A stretch of DNA of 44,559 bases from Woeseiaceae bacterium (GTDB taxonomy: Bacteria > Pseudomonadota > Gammaproteobacteria > Steroidobacterales > Woeseiaceae): NCBI GenBank assembly GCA_030066655.1, contig JASJBE010000016.1, forward strand, positions 1-44,559. Direction: 5' to 3'. The notes below the pieces were generated by a model. It did not search any database. It worked only from the letters and a program-made list of their open reading frames with translations, and had not been told where the DNA came from. Both the position numbers and the translations under genes were made by a program. Every line of letters begins with the position of its first letter. The first letter of the stretch is position 1. Shown here one piece after another: positions 2,244 to 10,114 of this stretch.

Positions 2244-4421
2244 TTACGCCTTGGCTTGTTGCCGGTACTGATGCAATAACGGCTCGGTGTAGCCGTTCGG
2301 CTGGCTGCAGCCTTTCAGCGCGAGGTCACAGGCGGCCTTGTAGGCGACGCCATCGAACGTCGGTCCCATCGGCCGGTACGCGGGGTCGCCCGCATTCTGC
2401 TCATCGACAATGCTTGCCATGCGCCGGAACGTGTTCAGCACCTGCAGCTCGGTACAGACGCCGTGGTGCAACCAGTTGGCAATGTGCTGGCTCGAGATCC
2501 TGAGCGTGGCGCGATCTTCCATCAGCCCGACATCCTCGATGTCCGGCACCTTCGAGCAGCCGACGCCCTGGTCGATCCATCGCACGACGTAACCGAGGAT
2601 GCCCTGCGCGTTGTTGTCGAGCTCTTTCTGGATATCTTCCTTGGACAGGGAACCCGGATCGCCCAGCGGCGGCATCAGGATGTCGTCCAGGCTAGCAGGC
2701 TCCCTCGAAGCCAGCTCTTTCTGAATGTCAGCAACGCTCGCCGCGTGATAGTGCATCGCGTGCAGCACGGCCGCCGTGGGCGACGGCACCCAGGCGCAGT
2801 TGGCGCCCATCTCGACGTGCATCTGCTTCGTGTCGATCATCTGCCGCATCTCGTCCGGCTTCGGCCACATGCCTTTACCGATCTGCGCCCGCCCCGGCAG
2901 GCCGCAGCGAAGGCCGACATCGACGTTGCGATCTTCGTAGGCCTGTATCCAGGGCTGCGACTTGATGGTCTCCTTCGGCAGCATCGGTCCGGCTTCCATG
3001 CTCGTGTGAATCTCGTCGCCGGTGCGGTCGAGGAAGCCGGTGTTGATGAACACGAGCCGATGTTTGACGCGCCTGATGCATTCCTCGAGGTTGACCGTGG
3101 TCCGGCGCTCTTCGTCCATAACGCCGATCTTCAGCGTATTGCGTTCGAGGCCGAACAAGTCCTCGACCCGGGAAAACAGCTTGTCGGCGAACGCGACTTC
3201 GGTCGAGCCGTGCATCTTGGGCTTAACGATGTAGAGGCTGCCGCTTCGGCTGTTGGACAGCGCGTTCTGCTTCTTGAGGTCGTACAACGCGCAGGCCGTG
3301 GTCATGACAGCATCCATGATGCCCTCGAACACTTCATCGCCGTTTGCGTCGAGCACGGCAGGGGTTGTCATCAGGTGTCCGACATTTCGCACGAGCATCA
3401 GGCTGCGGCCCGGGAGTGACAGCGTACCGCCATTCGCCGCTGTGTAGTGGCGATCTTCATTCAGGCGCCGCGTCATTTCACGACCGCCTTTCGCGAAGGT
3501 CGCAGACAGCGTGCCACGCATCAGGCCCAGCCAGTTCCGATAAACAGTGACCTTGTCTTCGGCATCGACGGCGGCGACCGAGTCCTCGCAGTCCTGGATC
3601 GTCGTGACGGCGGCCTCGAGAATGATGTCGCTGACGTCGGCCGGTGAGTCCTTGCCGATCGGGTGATCAGGGTCAATGCGAATCTCGATATGCAGACCGT
3701 TGTTCTTCAAGAGCAGCGTTTTCTTCTTGCCGTTCTCGGCGAAGCCCAAGAACTGGCCGGCATCGCGAAGCGCGGTCGTGCGTCCGTCTGCGAGTGCGAC
3801 TGACAGCGTCGCAGCGTCACGGGCTTTGTAAATGTCGTAGCCAACGACATCGGCATGATTGCCCTCGACCAGGGGCACGGCGGTGTCGAGGAGCTCGGCA
3901 GCAGCCTGGATTACGCTGGCACCTCGAACCGGGTTGTAGCCGCCGCCCGGCTCACGGCCCTCCGTGGTCGGTATGGCGTCCGTGCCGTAGAACGCGTCGT
4001 ACAGGCTGCCCCACCGGGCATTGGCGGCGTTCAACGCGAAGCGGGCGTTACTGACCGGTACGACGAGCTGGGGGCCAGCCACACTGGCGATCTCCGGGTC
4101 GACGTTCTCGGTTTCGATCTGGAAGGGCTCGCCAGGCTCCTCGAGGTAGCCGATGCTTTGCAGGAACGCCTTGTACTCTTTGGCATCCCAAGGCTTGCCT
4201 TTCTGGTCCTTGTGGTACTGGTCTATCGTCGCCTGCAACTTGTCGCGGGCCTCGAGCAAGGCCCGATTCTCCGGCGTCAGATCGGAGACGATCGCAGCGA
4301 AACCGTCCCAGAACGGGCCGGGATCGACACCTAAGTCGGGCAGTAGCTTTTCTTCGACAAAAGCTCGAAGCCGTTGGTCGACAGTCAATGCATGACTGAC
4401 GCTGCGAGCCGTCTCGTTCAT
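2244..4421 (-). CDS. glcB: Malate synthase G
   Basis: The product condenses glyoxylate with acetyl-CoA to give malate, the second step of the glyoxylate shunt, in the cytoplasm. At 725 residues it matches the usual length of the G isoform. Visible family features are the N-terminal helical clasp (1-90), the inserted alpha/beta domain (about 130-290, including EGNHADV and ADGRT), the TIM-barrel core with GVMDEERRT (433-441) and [21 protein letters not shown] (metal-ligand region, about 459-479), and the C-terminal segment with [23 protein letters not shown] carrying the expected Cys (622) and catalytic Asp (636). GGGAGAT lies upstream of the ATG. It is the last gene of a minus-strand unit, 48 bases after isocitrate lyase. 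In many bacteria MSG serves glycolate metabolism; here it is paired with aceA. Confidence 0.98.
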
Positions 4422-4469: not shown

Positions 4470-5759
<1,290 letters not shown>

Positions 5760-5771
5760 TGTCTTTGTGCC

Positions 5772-6245
5772 TTAGATCGTTATCGAGGCCGGAGTGTGAG
5801 CTGGTTGCTGTCGCGGTGTGCCGATACGCAGCGCCTCTGTGGCTTCTCGCTCCGGTGCTAAAAAGAGCAGGTTACCGTCCGGCGCAACAATTTTATGTAC
5901 GGTCTTTCCGAGACGAGTGACCTTCGGGTCAGCCGCAGACAGTGCGCGGCATGCCGAGTATTCGGGCCAGGCATCAATGCGGCTCACGCAGTTGTGACGC
6001 TTCCGGTCCGTTTCGATTCGGATCACCTCACTACCGCACCGGAAATACAGTGCGTTGTGCTCTTTGGCGAAGGTCCAGCCGAGGAACTGGTTGCGGCTCT
6101 TCAACCGGGCAGTCCGGCCGTCCGCAAGCATCACGAGGCACTCCGCGTATCGCAGCGGGATATCAACGGCGAGACCGGTCACATCGGCGTGTGAACCTTC
6201 GGTCAGGGGTATCAGTCGATCCAGATCCGTAGCGTCGTATGTCAT
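5772..6245 (-). CDS. Stand-alone malate-synthase-G-domain-like protein
   Basis: This is a 157-residue cytoplasmic protein, first gene of the glyoxylate unit. I chose the ATG at 6245 because GGGAG lies about 8 bases upstream; a longer frame to 6296 would run through the promoter. Residues 12-80 align without gaps to residues 182-250 of the malate synthase G encoded two genes downstream, with 26 of 69 identical. Shared motifs are EG.HADV.G, ADGRT and QFLG. That segment lies in the alpha/beta domain of MSG, away from the catalytic barrel. The catalytic residues of MSG are absent, so it is not an active synthase. Residues 81-157 have no match that I recognise; RLGKTVHKIV and NLLFLAPERE suggest another small folded unit. 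A regulatory or structural role is inference only. Confidence 0.88.
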   Translation of the reverse strand: MTYDATDLDRLIPLTEGSHADVTGLAVDIPLRYAECLVMLADGRTARLKSRNQFLGWTFAKEHNALYFRCGSEVIRIETDRKRHNCVSRIDAWPEYSACRALSAADPKVTRLGKTVHKIVAPDGNLLFLAPEREATEALRIGTPRQQPAHTPASITI

Positions 6246-6357
6246 CGGTGGCTCCCGCATTGTCAGTGAGATAAACAGGCTTAACATCCTAGTCAAAAAG
6301 ATGTTAAAATTTTACAACAAAAATTTGACAGTGTTAATTTCACAAAAAGCTTAACAT
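6246..6357. promoter_or_regulatory. Divergent promoter with four TTAACA half-sites
   Basis: This is a short AT-rich region between the glyoxylate unit and its divergent regulator. TTAACA occurs at 6281-6286 and 6351-6356, and its reverse complement TGTTAA at 6302-6307 and 6332-6337. The first two make a 7-bp inverted repeat (TTAACAT/ATGTTAA), and GCTTAACAT is repeated exactly at 6279-6287 and 6349-6357. A tentative minus-strand promoter is TTGACT (complement of 6291-6296), 17 bases, TATCTC (complement of 6268-6273), with one half-site inside the spacer. The last half-site overlaps the regulator start codon. By inference these are binding sites for the RamB-like protein, giving control of aceA and autoregulation. 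Confidence 0.6.
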
Positions 6358-7909
6358 GGCCGCAGACAAAGGAATTCGGCGAAAAGCGCACTTCGTCGGC
6401 ACGAAAATTCGCTCATTGCGCAAACGAAACGGGCTGACGCTCGAGGATTTATCCGTGCGCTGCCTGCAGGTGGACGCCAAGGCGGGGCCGTCCGTGTCCT
6501 ACCTGTCCATGATCGAGAACGGCCGCCGGGTGCCCTCCGAGGCGCTTTTGACGATCATCGCCGAGATATTCCAGAAGGATGTGTCCTGGTTCATGGATGA
6601 ATCCCTGGAGAGCGAAGCGCTCGACGTCGCACCGGCGAACGCGCCGGTCGCCGGGATGCCGTTCGAGCCCGGCTTCCTGTTCCAGGAGTCGCTATTGCAA
6701 ACGGCGATCCCGGAGCTGCTGTCGCAAACCGGCACGACCGGCCGCCAGTTCGCCCACCTGCTGATTCGGGCGCAGCAGGAAGCCAATCAGAACCGTTTTC
6801 CGGATCTGGAGCGCGCCGCCGAGTCGGTGGGACACAAGGTGTTCCCGCTGCAGGTCGACGACGTCCTCGGCCTGGCAAAGGACGTCGGGCTGAAGGTGCG
6901 CTGGTTCGACAAACCCGCCTTTGACGAGCCGTCCATCAGCGAAGGTCCCAAGAGAACGATCATCCGGTCGTTCTTCGAGGCGCCGGATACGATTTACCTT
7001 AATAAGGCGCTTGAGCATATGCCGGCGCGCCTCAAGTTCGATATCGCCAATCACATCGCGCATCGCGTACTGCATGACGGCGACGGAGCGCGATCACCGC
7101 AGCTTTCCGGTGGCCGCGGCTCGTCTCGCGAGCTCGGCACCACGATGAACAGTATCGATGCGAAGGACGTGCTGTATGCGTGGCGCGATTTCGAGTGCAC
7201 CTACTTCGCGGCGGCCCTGCTCGCGCCGAAGACGCCGTTCCGGCAGTTCCTTGCGAAGAAGGCGTATGCCATCGACGCCGGAGAAGGCATCCAGTTAACG
7301 ACGGCGCTGACGATGCGGCGCATGCCCAGCGTCAGCCCTTACCCGCATTGGCACTACTTCGACGCCTATCCACCGGGCCGGCTTCGCGCCGTCTACCGGG
7401 GTAACGGCATCCCACTGCCATGGGGCAACCTGACCGACCTGACCGACCCGTGCAGAAACTGGGCGGTCTTCAAGCTCCTGAAAGCCCGGTCGACCAAGCC
7501 GTCGTCGCAGATTTCCGTCCTGAGAAACGGTGACGACAGTCGCTTGTATTGCTGCCAATCGATCCGGAGCCTCGATGCCGCAGGGAATCCCTATGTGCTC
7601 TGTGTCGGTGTTGACCTCGCGCCGGCGCTGGCGGCGCAGGACATCGATCCGCGCAAGACCATCGACGCGATCGAGACCGCCTGCAATCGAGGCGGCGGCG
7701 ACGCACCGGTGCCGACCGAGGCCCGCAAGCAACTCGAAACGGTTGGACGAATACTGAACATAGGCTGGGTTGCTGAGGGCGCAAAGGAGGACGCGACGAT
7801 CATCTGTCCACGCAGCCAGGACTGCCCGCGCGACAATCACTGTCTGGGTGAAGTGCCCTTGAAACCTCGCTCTCAAATCGACGAGATCCGTGCCTCGCTG
7901 CTGAATTAG
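6356..7909 (+). CDS. RamB/ScfR-like XRE-family regulator (HTH + IrrE-like + DUF2083)
   Basis: This is a 517-residue DNA-binding protein. Domains in order are an XRE helix-turn-helix (about 13-80, with SYLSMIENGRRVPS as the recognition region), an IrrE/ImmA-like segment (about 160-295) and a long C-terminal region of the DUF2083 short-chain-fatty-acid-regulator type. The metallopeptidase motif is degenerate: HIAHRVLH at 233-240 replaces HExxH, so proteolysis is unlikely. The C-terminus carries an evenly spaced cysteine trio (C484, C490, C496). Family relatives such as RamB control isocitrate lyase and acetate or propionate genes, which fits its position directly divergent from the aceA unit. 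The start codon overlaps a TTAACA element and has only a weak ribosome-binding site. Confidence 0.9.
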   Translation: MAADKGIRRKAHFVGTKIRSLRKRNGLTLEDLSVRCLQVDAKAGPSVSYLSMIENGRRVPSEALLTIIAEIFQKDVSWFMDESLESEALDVAPANAPVAGMPFEPGFLFQESLLQTAIPELLSQTGTTGRQFAHLLIRAQQEANQNRFPDLERAAESVGHKVFPLQVDDVLGLAKDVGLKVRWFDKPAFDEPSISEGPKRTIIRSFFEAPDTIYLNKALEHMPARLKFDIANHIAHRVLHDGDGARSPQLSGGRGSSRELGTTMNSIDAKDVLYAWRDFECTYFAAALLAPKTPFRQFLAKKAYAIDAGEGIQLTTALTMRRMPSVSPYPHWHYFDAYPPGRLRAVYRGNGIPLPWGNLTDLTDPCRNWAVFKLLKARSTKPSSQISVLRNGDDSRLYCCQSIRSLDAAGNPYVLCVGVDLAPALAAQDIDPRKTIDAIETACNRGGGDAPVPTEARKQLETVGRILNIGWVAEGAKEDATIICPRSQDCPRDNHCLGEVPLKPRSQIDEIRASLLN

Positions 7910-9166: not shown

Positions 9167-10114
9167 TCAGACGTCACCGGTTAAGTGAGCCGCGGTAATT
9201 TGACCAACGGCACGAAGTACGGCTTCGTCCCGCTCCCGAATCTCGTTGTAGAAGCCGTCAGCCTCATAGTACGCGGTCAGTATGAACGCCGGTGTTTCGT
9301 CGTCTGGCCACGCCACTGCAACATCGTTGTACTTGTTTGGCATTGAATCGGCGATGCCGGTGCCCGTCTTGTCGCCGGCGCTCCACGTCGACGGGAAACC
9401 CGCTCGAAGTCTTGCACGTCCGGTCTTTGTCTCCTCCATCCAGGTGCGCAACAGCCGCTGGTTTTCTGGCCACAAGTACTGGCCGGAGATAATGTGCCTG
9501 ACAGTGGTCGCCATCGCCGCCGGGGTGGTCGTATCGCGAATCTCACCAGGCGGTACCAGGTTCATCTCTGTTTCATAGCGATCCAGTCGTGTGGTCGTAT
9601 CCCCAAACTCGCGTAGCTTGTCAGTAAAACCGACCGGCCCACCGATCAGGTCCAGCAGCAGGTTGGCCGCTGGATTGTCACTGGTCTTCTGAGCGGCTTC
9701 TGCCAGGTCGGCAACGGTCATGTAGCCCCTCTCGAGGTGCCGTGACGTGACCGGTGCGTAGGGCACCATGTCGTCTGTTGTGTAGTGCACGCGTGAATCC
9801 AGATCCAGGCGACCCTCCTGGGCCTCCTTCAGGATGACGGCGGCGAGTGCCAGTTTGAATGTCGAGCACATCCCGAATCTTTCATCGAGCCGATGCCCGA
9901 CCGGATCTGCTGACGTGAGACTCAAGAACCCTACGCCGAGGCGGCCGCCGGATTGACGCTCCAGCTCGGCGATCTCTTCTTCATAAGACTGTGTCGAGAA
10001 CGGCTCCTTGCAGCCCGTTGCGCAAAGGCCCGCCAGGCCTGCGACACCCGCCTTTAGTGCTGTTCTTCTACTGACCACACGGCTGCTCCAATCACGCTCA
10101 TGCCGATCGTCCAT
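9167..10114 (-). CDS. Class A beta-lactamase, Tat-exported predicted lipoprotein
   Basis: The product hydrolyses beta-lactam antibiotics through an active-site serine. All class A motifs are present: STFK at 84-87 (nucleophile Ser84), SDN at 145-147, ETEMN at 181-185 (general-base Glu181) and KTG at 249-251. A Cys precedes STFK, as in CTX-M and KPC enzymes, but no Cys follows KTGT, so the carbapenemase-type disulfide is absent. The N-terminus has the twin-arginine motif SRRTALK and an apparent lipobox ending at Cys35, so the enzyme is probably exported folded and membrane anchored. At 315 residues it is slightly longer than usual because of this leader. GGGGA precedes the ATG. No mobile element or regulator flanks it, suggesting a resident chromosomal gene. 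The substrate range cannot be told from the motifs. Confidence 0.95.
   Translation of the reverse strand: MDDRHERDWSSRVVSRRTALKAGVAGLAGLCATGCKEPFSTQSYEEEIAELERQSGGRLGVGFLSLTSADPVGHRLDERFGMCSTFKLALAAVILKEAQEGRLDLDSRVHYTTDDMVPYAPVTSRHLERGYMTVADLAEAAQKTSDNPAANLLLDLIGGPVGFTDKLREFGDTTTRLDRYETEMNLVPPGEIRDTTTPAAMATTVRHIISGQYLWPENQRLLRTWMEETKTGRARLRAGFPSTWSAGDKTGTGIADSMPNKYNDVAVAWPDDETPAFILTAYYEADGFYNEIRERDEAVLRAVGQITAAHLTGDV

Follow-up and report, generated by a model that had tools for sequence, protein, structure and literature searches.

A stand-alone alpha/beta domain of malate synthase G in a glyoxylate-shunt operon, a candidate non-catalytic effector of a DUF3612-linked regulon

The first gene of a glyoxylate-shunt operon from a Woeseiaceae bacterium codes for one part of malate synthase G (MSG), its alpha/beta domain, as a separate protein; computation shows that the intervening barrel segment has been deleted and that the catalytic parts are gone. 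We propose, at about even chances, that this protein is an effector within a DUF3612 regulon, devoid of catalysis and acting at the isocitrate/glyoxylate branch. The features of the window, by which we mean the whole stretch of 44,559 nucleotides that was analysed, are as follows.

5772..6245, (-): gene for the stand-alone MSG alpha/beta domain (P0001, 157 aa), heading the operon (ORF list, family and BLASTP matches, relatives, dN/dS)
5961..6224, (-): domain segment 1, residues 8-95, matching MSG 178 to about 270 (BLASTP, hhalign, structure)
5850..5909, (-): domain segment 2, about residues 113-132, matching MSG 316-338 (hhalign, shuffles, structural match)
5775..5849, (-): unconserved C-terminal tail, residues 133-157 (alignment; lower pLDDT)
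6308..6346, (+): operator-like element of 39 bp, three AATTTYACA direct repeats with a period of 14
6286..6291, (-): -10-like box TAGGAT, 17 bases off the 39-bp element
6356..7909, (+): divergent regulator, 517 aa, HTH_3, Peptidase_M78-like and DUF3612 (family matches)
4470..5759, (-): aceA, isocitrate lyase, 429 aa (family matches)
2244..4421, (-): glcB, full-length MSG, 725 aa (family matches)
3612..3911, (-): alpha/beta segment 1 within glcB (residues 171-270), with homology to the small protein (BLASTP, hhalign)
3408..3476, (-): alpha/beta segment 2 within glcB, residues 316-338 (hhalign, shuffles)

The small gene starts with the ATG at 6245, and a ribosome-site-like GGGAG lies at 6252-6256. 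Twelve bases separate it from aceA and a further 48 separate aceA from glcB. As a preliminary description of this DNA had stated, it is grouped with the shunt genes, and a regulator-linked promoter precedes it. Elsewhere in the window, at 9167-10114 (-), an ORF judged by eye only resembles a class A beta-lactamase with a signal peptide.

How secure is the assignment of the small protein to MSG? Its residues 8-80 align without a gap to residues 178-250 of the window MSG (BLASTP, 28 of 73 identical, E 2e-11), which bears out the ungapped match reported earlier (12-80 against 182-250, 26 of 69). The alignment is ungapped because both proteins carry a small number of additional residues around MSG 196-203, which are common to the Woeseiaceae MSGs and stand-alone proteins and missing in most other MSGs. 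The protein matches the Pfam family MSG_insertion (PF20658) at 36.2 bits (E 7.2e-9; gathering cut-off 24.8 bits), the only Pfam family above its cut-off in the 157 residues and one matched also by 23 of 23 aligned relatives. The TIM barrel (PF01274), the C-terminal domain (PF20659) and the catalytic residues are absent from the 157-aa protein, which thus does not qualify as an MSG enzyme. A profile of the 23 relatives aligns with MSG over residues 171-339 (hhalign, probability 99.6, E 1.3e-23), with a single large jump from about MSG 270 to about 316-338. Against the PDB, phmmer with the single small-protein sequence found no match, while the family profile matched nothing but MSGs; in plasmids, a tblastn search with the window protein gave no match.

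The jump bears on the 77 residues which the preliminary description had left unexplained. Their conserved part, centred on the motif [K/R]-x-[F/I/V]-x-x-x-D-G-x-L, corresponds to MSG 316-338 and completes the domain; the C-terminal 34 profile columns match this stretch on their own, with a score that none of 100 column shuffles reached. Only the last 25 or so residues form an unconserved tail. The counterpart of segment 2 in MSG is the strand pair immediately ahead of the catalytic-arginine segment, and the barrel stretch that separates the two segments in MSG is absent from the small protein. In E. coli MSG the alpha/beta domain is split in sequence into two parts (about 135-262 and 296-333) that flank a barrel stretch; hence the small protein retains parts of both, with the barrel stretch lost.

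The predicted structure points the same way. The AlphaFold2 model of the 157-aa protein (pLDDT 84.8, pTM 0.78) aligns in VIA-align, over its span 5-130, with residues 173-331 of M. tuberculosis MSG (Z 12.6, 3.1 Å, 102 residues), and with residues 170-330 of E. coli MSG at Z 11.5. The match extends over both sequence segments, so that the model has the predicted MSG alpha/beta fold, and a structural search with it returned exclusively MSGs among the matches listed. Profile, structure and shuffle tests reject a chance similarity. The preliminary description, which had offered to give up its reading if no structural match to the alpha/beta domain appeared, was thus right to call the protein a detached MSG domain without catalytic residues: PF20658, BLASTP, hhalign and the structural match agree. 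Compared with malate synthase G itself (GlcB; TIGR01345, PF01274/PF20658/PF20659), the small protein shares the homologous alpha/beta domain, in both segments and in predicted fold, but lacks the N-terminal clasp, the TIM barrel, the C-terminal domain and the catalytic residues.

Across the alignment of relatives His19, Trp57 and Gly124 are invariant and Asp42 nearly so. Such residues, in a gene co-located with isocitrate lyase, the producer of glyoxylate, would suit a protein that binds or buffers a reactive intermediate such as glyoxylate without any protein partner. The glyoxylate and acetyl-CoA sites of MSG, however, lie in the barrel and the C-terminal domain, both absent here, and we regard this explanation as quite improbable.

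If the domain is kept apart from its enzyme, how is it controlled? The product of the divergent gene 6356-7909 has, as RamB/ScfR regulators do, an XRE-type HTH (HTH_3, 4.6e-9) and an M78-like region (Peptidase_M78, 22.1 bits against a cut-off of 22). Intergenic regions on the DUF3612 side have the 39-bp element in common, and from its position the DUF3612 regulator would be the protein that binds it. The element lies upstream of the stand-alone gene or its operon in 67 of the 67 loci scanned, including copies far from the regulator; where aceA is the first gene, it sits upstream of aceA. The weight matrix was trained on sites adjacent to DUF3612, which makes copies away from DUF3612 out of sample, and each locus with a stand-alone gene away from DUF3612 has exactly one site above threshold, just upstream of that gene. 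A TANNNT box follows 17 bases from the element, on the side of the small gene or aceA, in 59 of the 67 loci. The window has both, the element at 6308-6346 and the -10-like box at 6286-6291, at +17. The element is placed just upstream of, or overlapping, the promoter -35 position, as is often found for activator sites. A generic promoter scan, which placed sigma-70-like sites within the element, was set aside.

Whole-genome scans of 36 genomes from the genus or order, allowing at most two mismatches, gave 32 sites, all 32 at DUF3612, aceA (of either type) or the stand-alone gene; the reversed pattern gave none in the same 36 genomes. A further 24 genomes, Vibrio-like or of another gammaproteobacterial family (f160), were scanned at up to three mismatches and the sites compared with gene coordinates (group names such as Vibrio-like were assigned by near matches to named records). 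Here 33 of 35 sites adjoin the stand-alone gene, the two exceptions being G440:C90 and a contig-end site in G431. In the Vibrio-like genomes the stand-alone genes are the only detectable element sites. An element-like stretch with three mismatches at L218:1501-1537 (G440) has no adjoining stand-alone gene; the nearest long ORF is ketopantoate-reductase-like.

A comparable arrangement is known from Paracoccus, where RamB, a protein that binds CoA thioesters, turns on the glyoxylate-cycle operon (PMC10370305). Like the RamB/ScfR operons (PMC10370305), the window has an XRE-type regulator whose gene lies divergently to the shunt operon, and repeated operator boxes upstream of the operon. The two differ in the sensor domain, ScfR there and DUF3612 here; in the operator, two boxes with an 18-bp spacer there and three boxes of period 14 here; and in that the DUF3612 regulon includes a dead enzyme domain. 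The RamB model NF038139 matches the window regulator at 16.6 bits, in the HTH part only, against a curated cut-off of 700 bits.

Is the gene a passing accident? It is no single-genome oddity: 24 of 36 congeneric genomes carry a stand-alone ORF of roughly 104-185 aa. The congeners place it, as in the window, in small-aceA-glcB divergent from DUF3612, or in aceA-small-glcB, in aceA-small, beside DUF3612 alone, or elsewhere. In L002, the locus of a Woeseiaceae MAG to which the genome of the window is close, the small protein is 89% identical and the aceA product 99%; dN/dS against this locus is 0.096 for the small gene, 0.076 for glcB, 0.011 for aceA and 0.037 for DUF3612, and other pairs with unsaturated dS give 0.05-0.26 for the small gene. 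The small gene is under purifying selection, and the dN/dS values disfavour a pseudogene. The neutral decay and missing conservation beside aceA/glcB by which the preliminary description agreed to be judged were not what the neighbourhoods and dN/dS values of the relatives revealed. Its suggestion of an evolutionary by-product fares poorly. A functionless remnant, expressed only through its position behind the aceA promoter, would fit the absence of the gene from a third of congeners and the truncated MSGs that occupy the same slot in other lineages (334-423 aa), but not the low dN/dS, nor the copies far from aceA that retain an element of their own, nor at least two independent origins; we hold it to be highly improbable.

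Two observations count against an effector. Nine congeners have DUF3612 yet no stand-alone gene, so the circuit can run without the small protein, and many stand-alone copies adjoin unrelated genes. In one subgroup (L066, L067, L068, L070 and L072; neighbour families tested in L066 only) the stand-alone genes lie near aspartate-ammonia ligase (AsnA), glutamate dehydrogenase and aldehyde dehydrogenase, away from shunt genes, with the element kept.

Might the small protein act on MSG itself? Five Woeseiaceae MSGs, those of G020, G025, G033, G021 and G001 (L294, L295, L296, L297 and L264), have a deletion of about 20 residues in the alpha/beta domain (rows G005b and G035 were left out of this comparison). 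Four of the five (G020, G021, G025 and G033) are encoded in small-aceA-glcB operons, and five operons of this kind were checked in all, as would be expected if the small protein docked on full-length MSG and replaced or modulated its alpha/beta domain. The window MSG, however, has no such deletion; one event in a single clade may account for it, and it is present also in G001, for which the search gave no small gene; and eight complete genomes with the stand-alone gene (G553, G802, G782, G661, G780, G740, G579 and G812) have malate synthase A only and no MSG. MSG is thus not the general target, and the earlier suggestion that the protein binds MSG falls as a general role; docking on MSG strikes us as improbable.

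Analogous stand-alone proteins occur next to the same DUF3612 regulator in Vibrio, Pseudoalteromonas and a third group. In f160 a version of 110-122 aa lies between DUF3612 and an unlike isocitrate lyase, of the 532-aa type, and further copies stand ahead of monomeric isocitrate dehydrogenase. Some genomes carry in this slot truncated MSGs of 373-423 aa, which resemble intermediate stages. Three loci (L128, L132 and L134) have a second pair of DUF3612 and stand-alone gene followed by a gene of 753-754 aa, which in L128 and L134 is monomeric isocitrate dehydrogenase. The truncated MSGs of L135, L136, L137 and L166, about 334-423 aa long and in the same slot beside DUF3612, are possibly intermediate stages of domain detachment.

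The preliminary description knew of no protein consisting of this domain alone. One has in fact been modelled: NF006511/PRK08951 of NCBIfam, named 'malate synthase', is the stand-alone form of about 190 aa of Vibrio, Pseudoalteromonas and relatives, although literature searches on DUF3612, PRK08951 and a stand-alone MSG domain found no paper. Named records so labelled and divergent from a DUF3612 gene include WP_005484284.1 of V. parahaemolyticus and WP_308362712.1 of Pseudoalteromonas xiamenensis, and the structure predicted for the Vibrio-like form, with a pLDDT of 70.6, aligns with residues 136-330 of E. coli MSG (Z 15.2). The public 'malate synthase' labels on the stand-alone proteins of Vibrio and Pseudoalteromonas are wrong; these proteins cannot be the enzyme. 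The NCBIfam form and the window protein are alike in being a stand-alone MSG alpha/beta domain, divergent from DUF3612 and behind the same 39-bp element. They differ in score, the window protein reaching 30.4 bits where the curated cut-off is 173, and in the tree, where the window protein groups with the Woeseiaceae MSGs.

Given that grouping, the window protein was probably derived independently of the NF006511 form. In the domain tree the Woeseiaceae stand-alone proteins and MSGs fall together (bootstrap 99); a separate clade, also with bootstrap 99, unites the truncated forms with those of f160 and Vibrio. A single origin of all stand-alone forms is rejected (AU p = 0.0165, 97 alignment columns). 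With an alignment of only 97 columns this falls short of proof, and we conclude that the MSG alpha/beta domain has likely been detached at least twice.

What might the detached domain do? The genes beside the stand-alone copies at the branch point encode isocitrate lyase of the 429-aa type, isocitrate lyase of the 532-aa type, monomeric isocitrate dehydrogenase and MSG. Neighbours so varied point to the branch point and not to one enzyme surface, and the recurrence of isocitrate lyase and isocitrate dehydrogenase favours a non-catalytic branch-point effector. By analogy with RamB, the DUF3612 regulator would turn on the small protein with aceA (and glcB) during use of two-carbon substrates; the small protein, as the output of the circuit, would tune flux at the isocitrate/glyoxylate branch through a protein partner or by metabolite binding.

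Alternatively, the domain protein might bind DUF3612 and report the state of the pathway, such as the level of glyoxylate or acetyl-CoA, closing a loop between target and sensor. Across families, indeed, nothing adjoins it as constantly as the divergent DUF3612 gene and the element, whereas the enzyme gene next to it varies. Yet many stand-alone copies are far from DUF3612, and in the Vibrio-like genomes, where element sites occur only at stand-alone genes, a circuit that produced only its own modulator would be pointless unless DUF3612 had other, divergent sites. We think such feedback unlikely, if worth keeping in mind. Since the stand-alone gene is the sole detectable output of the element in the Vibrio-like genomes, the small protein should act beyond its own regulator, as a branch-point effector would.

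To our knowledge, the alpha/beta insertion of MSG has no assigned function. Its repeated detachment, with no catalysis and a dedicated operator, is a natural experiment on what the domain does. It may be, at somewhat less than even chances, an autonomous regulatory module, cut out at least twice and each time left under one and the same DUF3612-linked operator, with the Vibrio-like genomes keeping a whole circuit for a dead domain that controls the isocitrate/glyoxylate branch. An undescribed layer of control at this branch in marine Gammaproteobacteria is thereby suggested. For Vibrio a metabolic role is inferred mainly from the origin of the domain, because most neighbours of the stand-alone gene there are not shunt genes. 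In two Vibrio-like loci, L153 and L155, a LysR-type regulator gene (tested in L153) separates glcB from the 532-aa isocitrate lyase, so the Vibrio-like shunt may have another main regulator.
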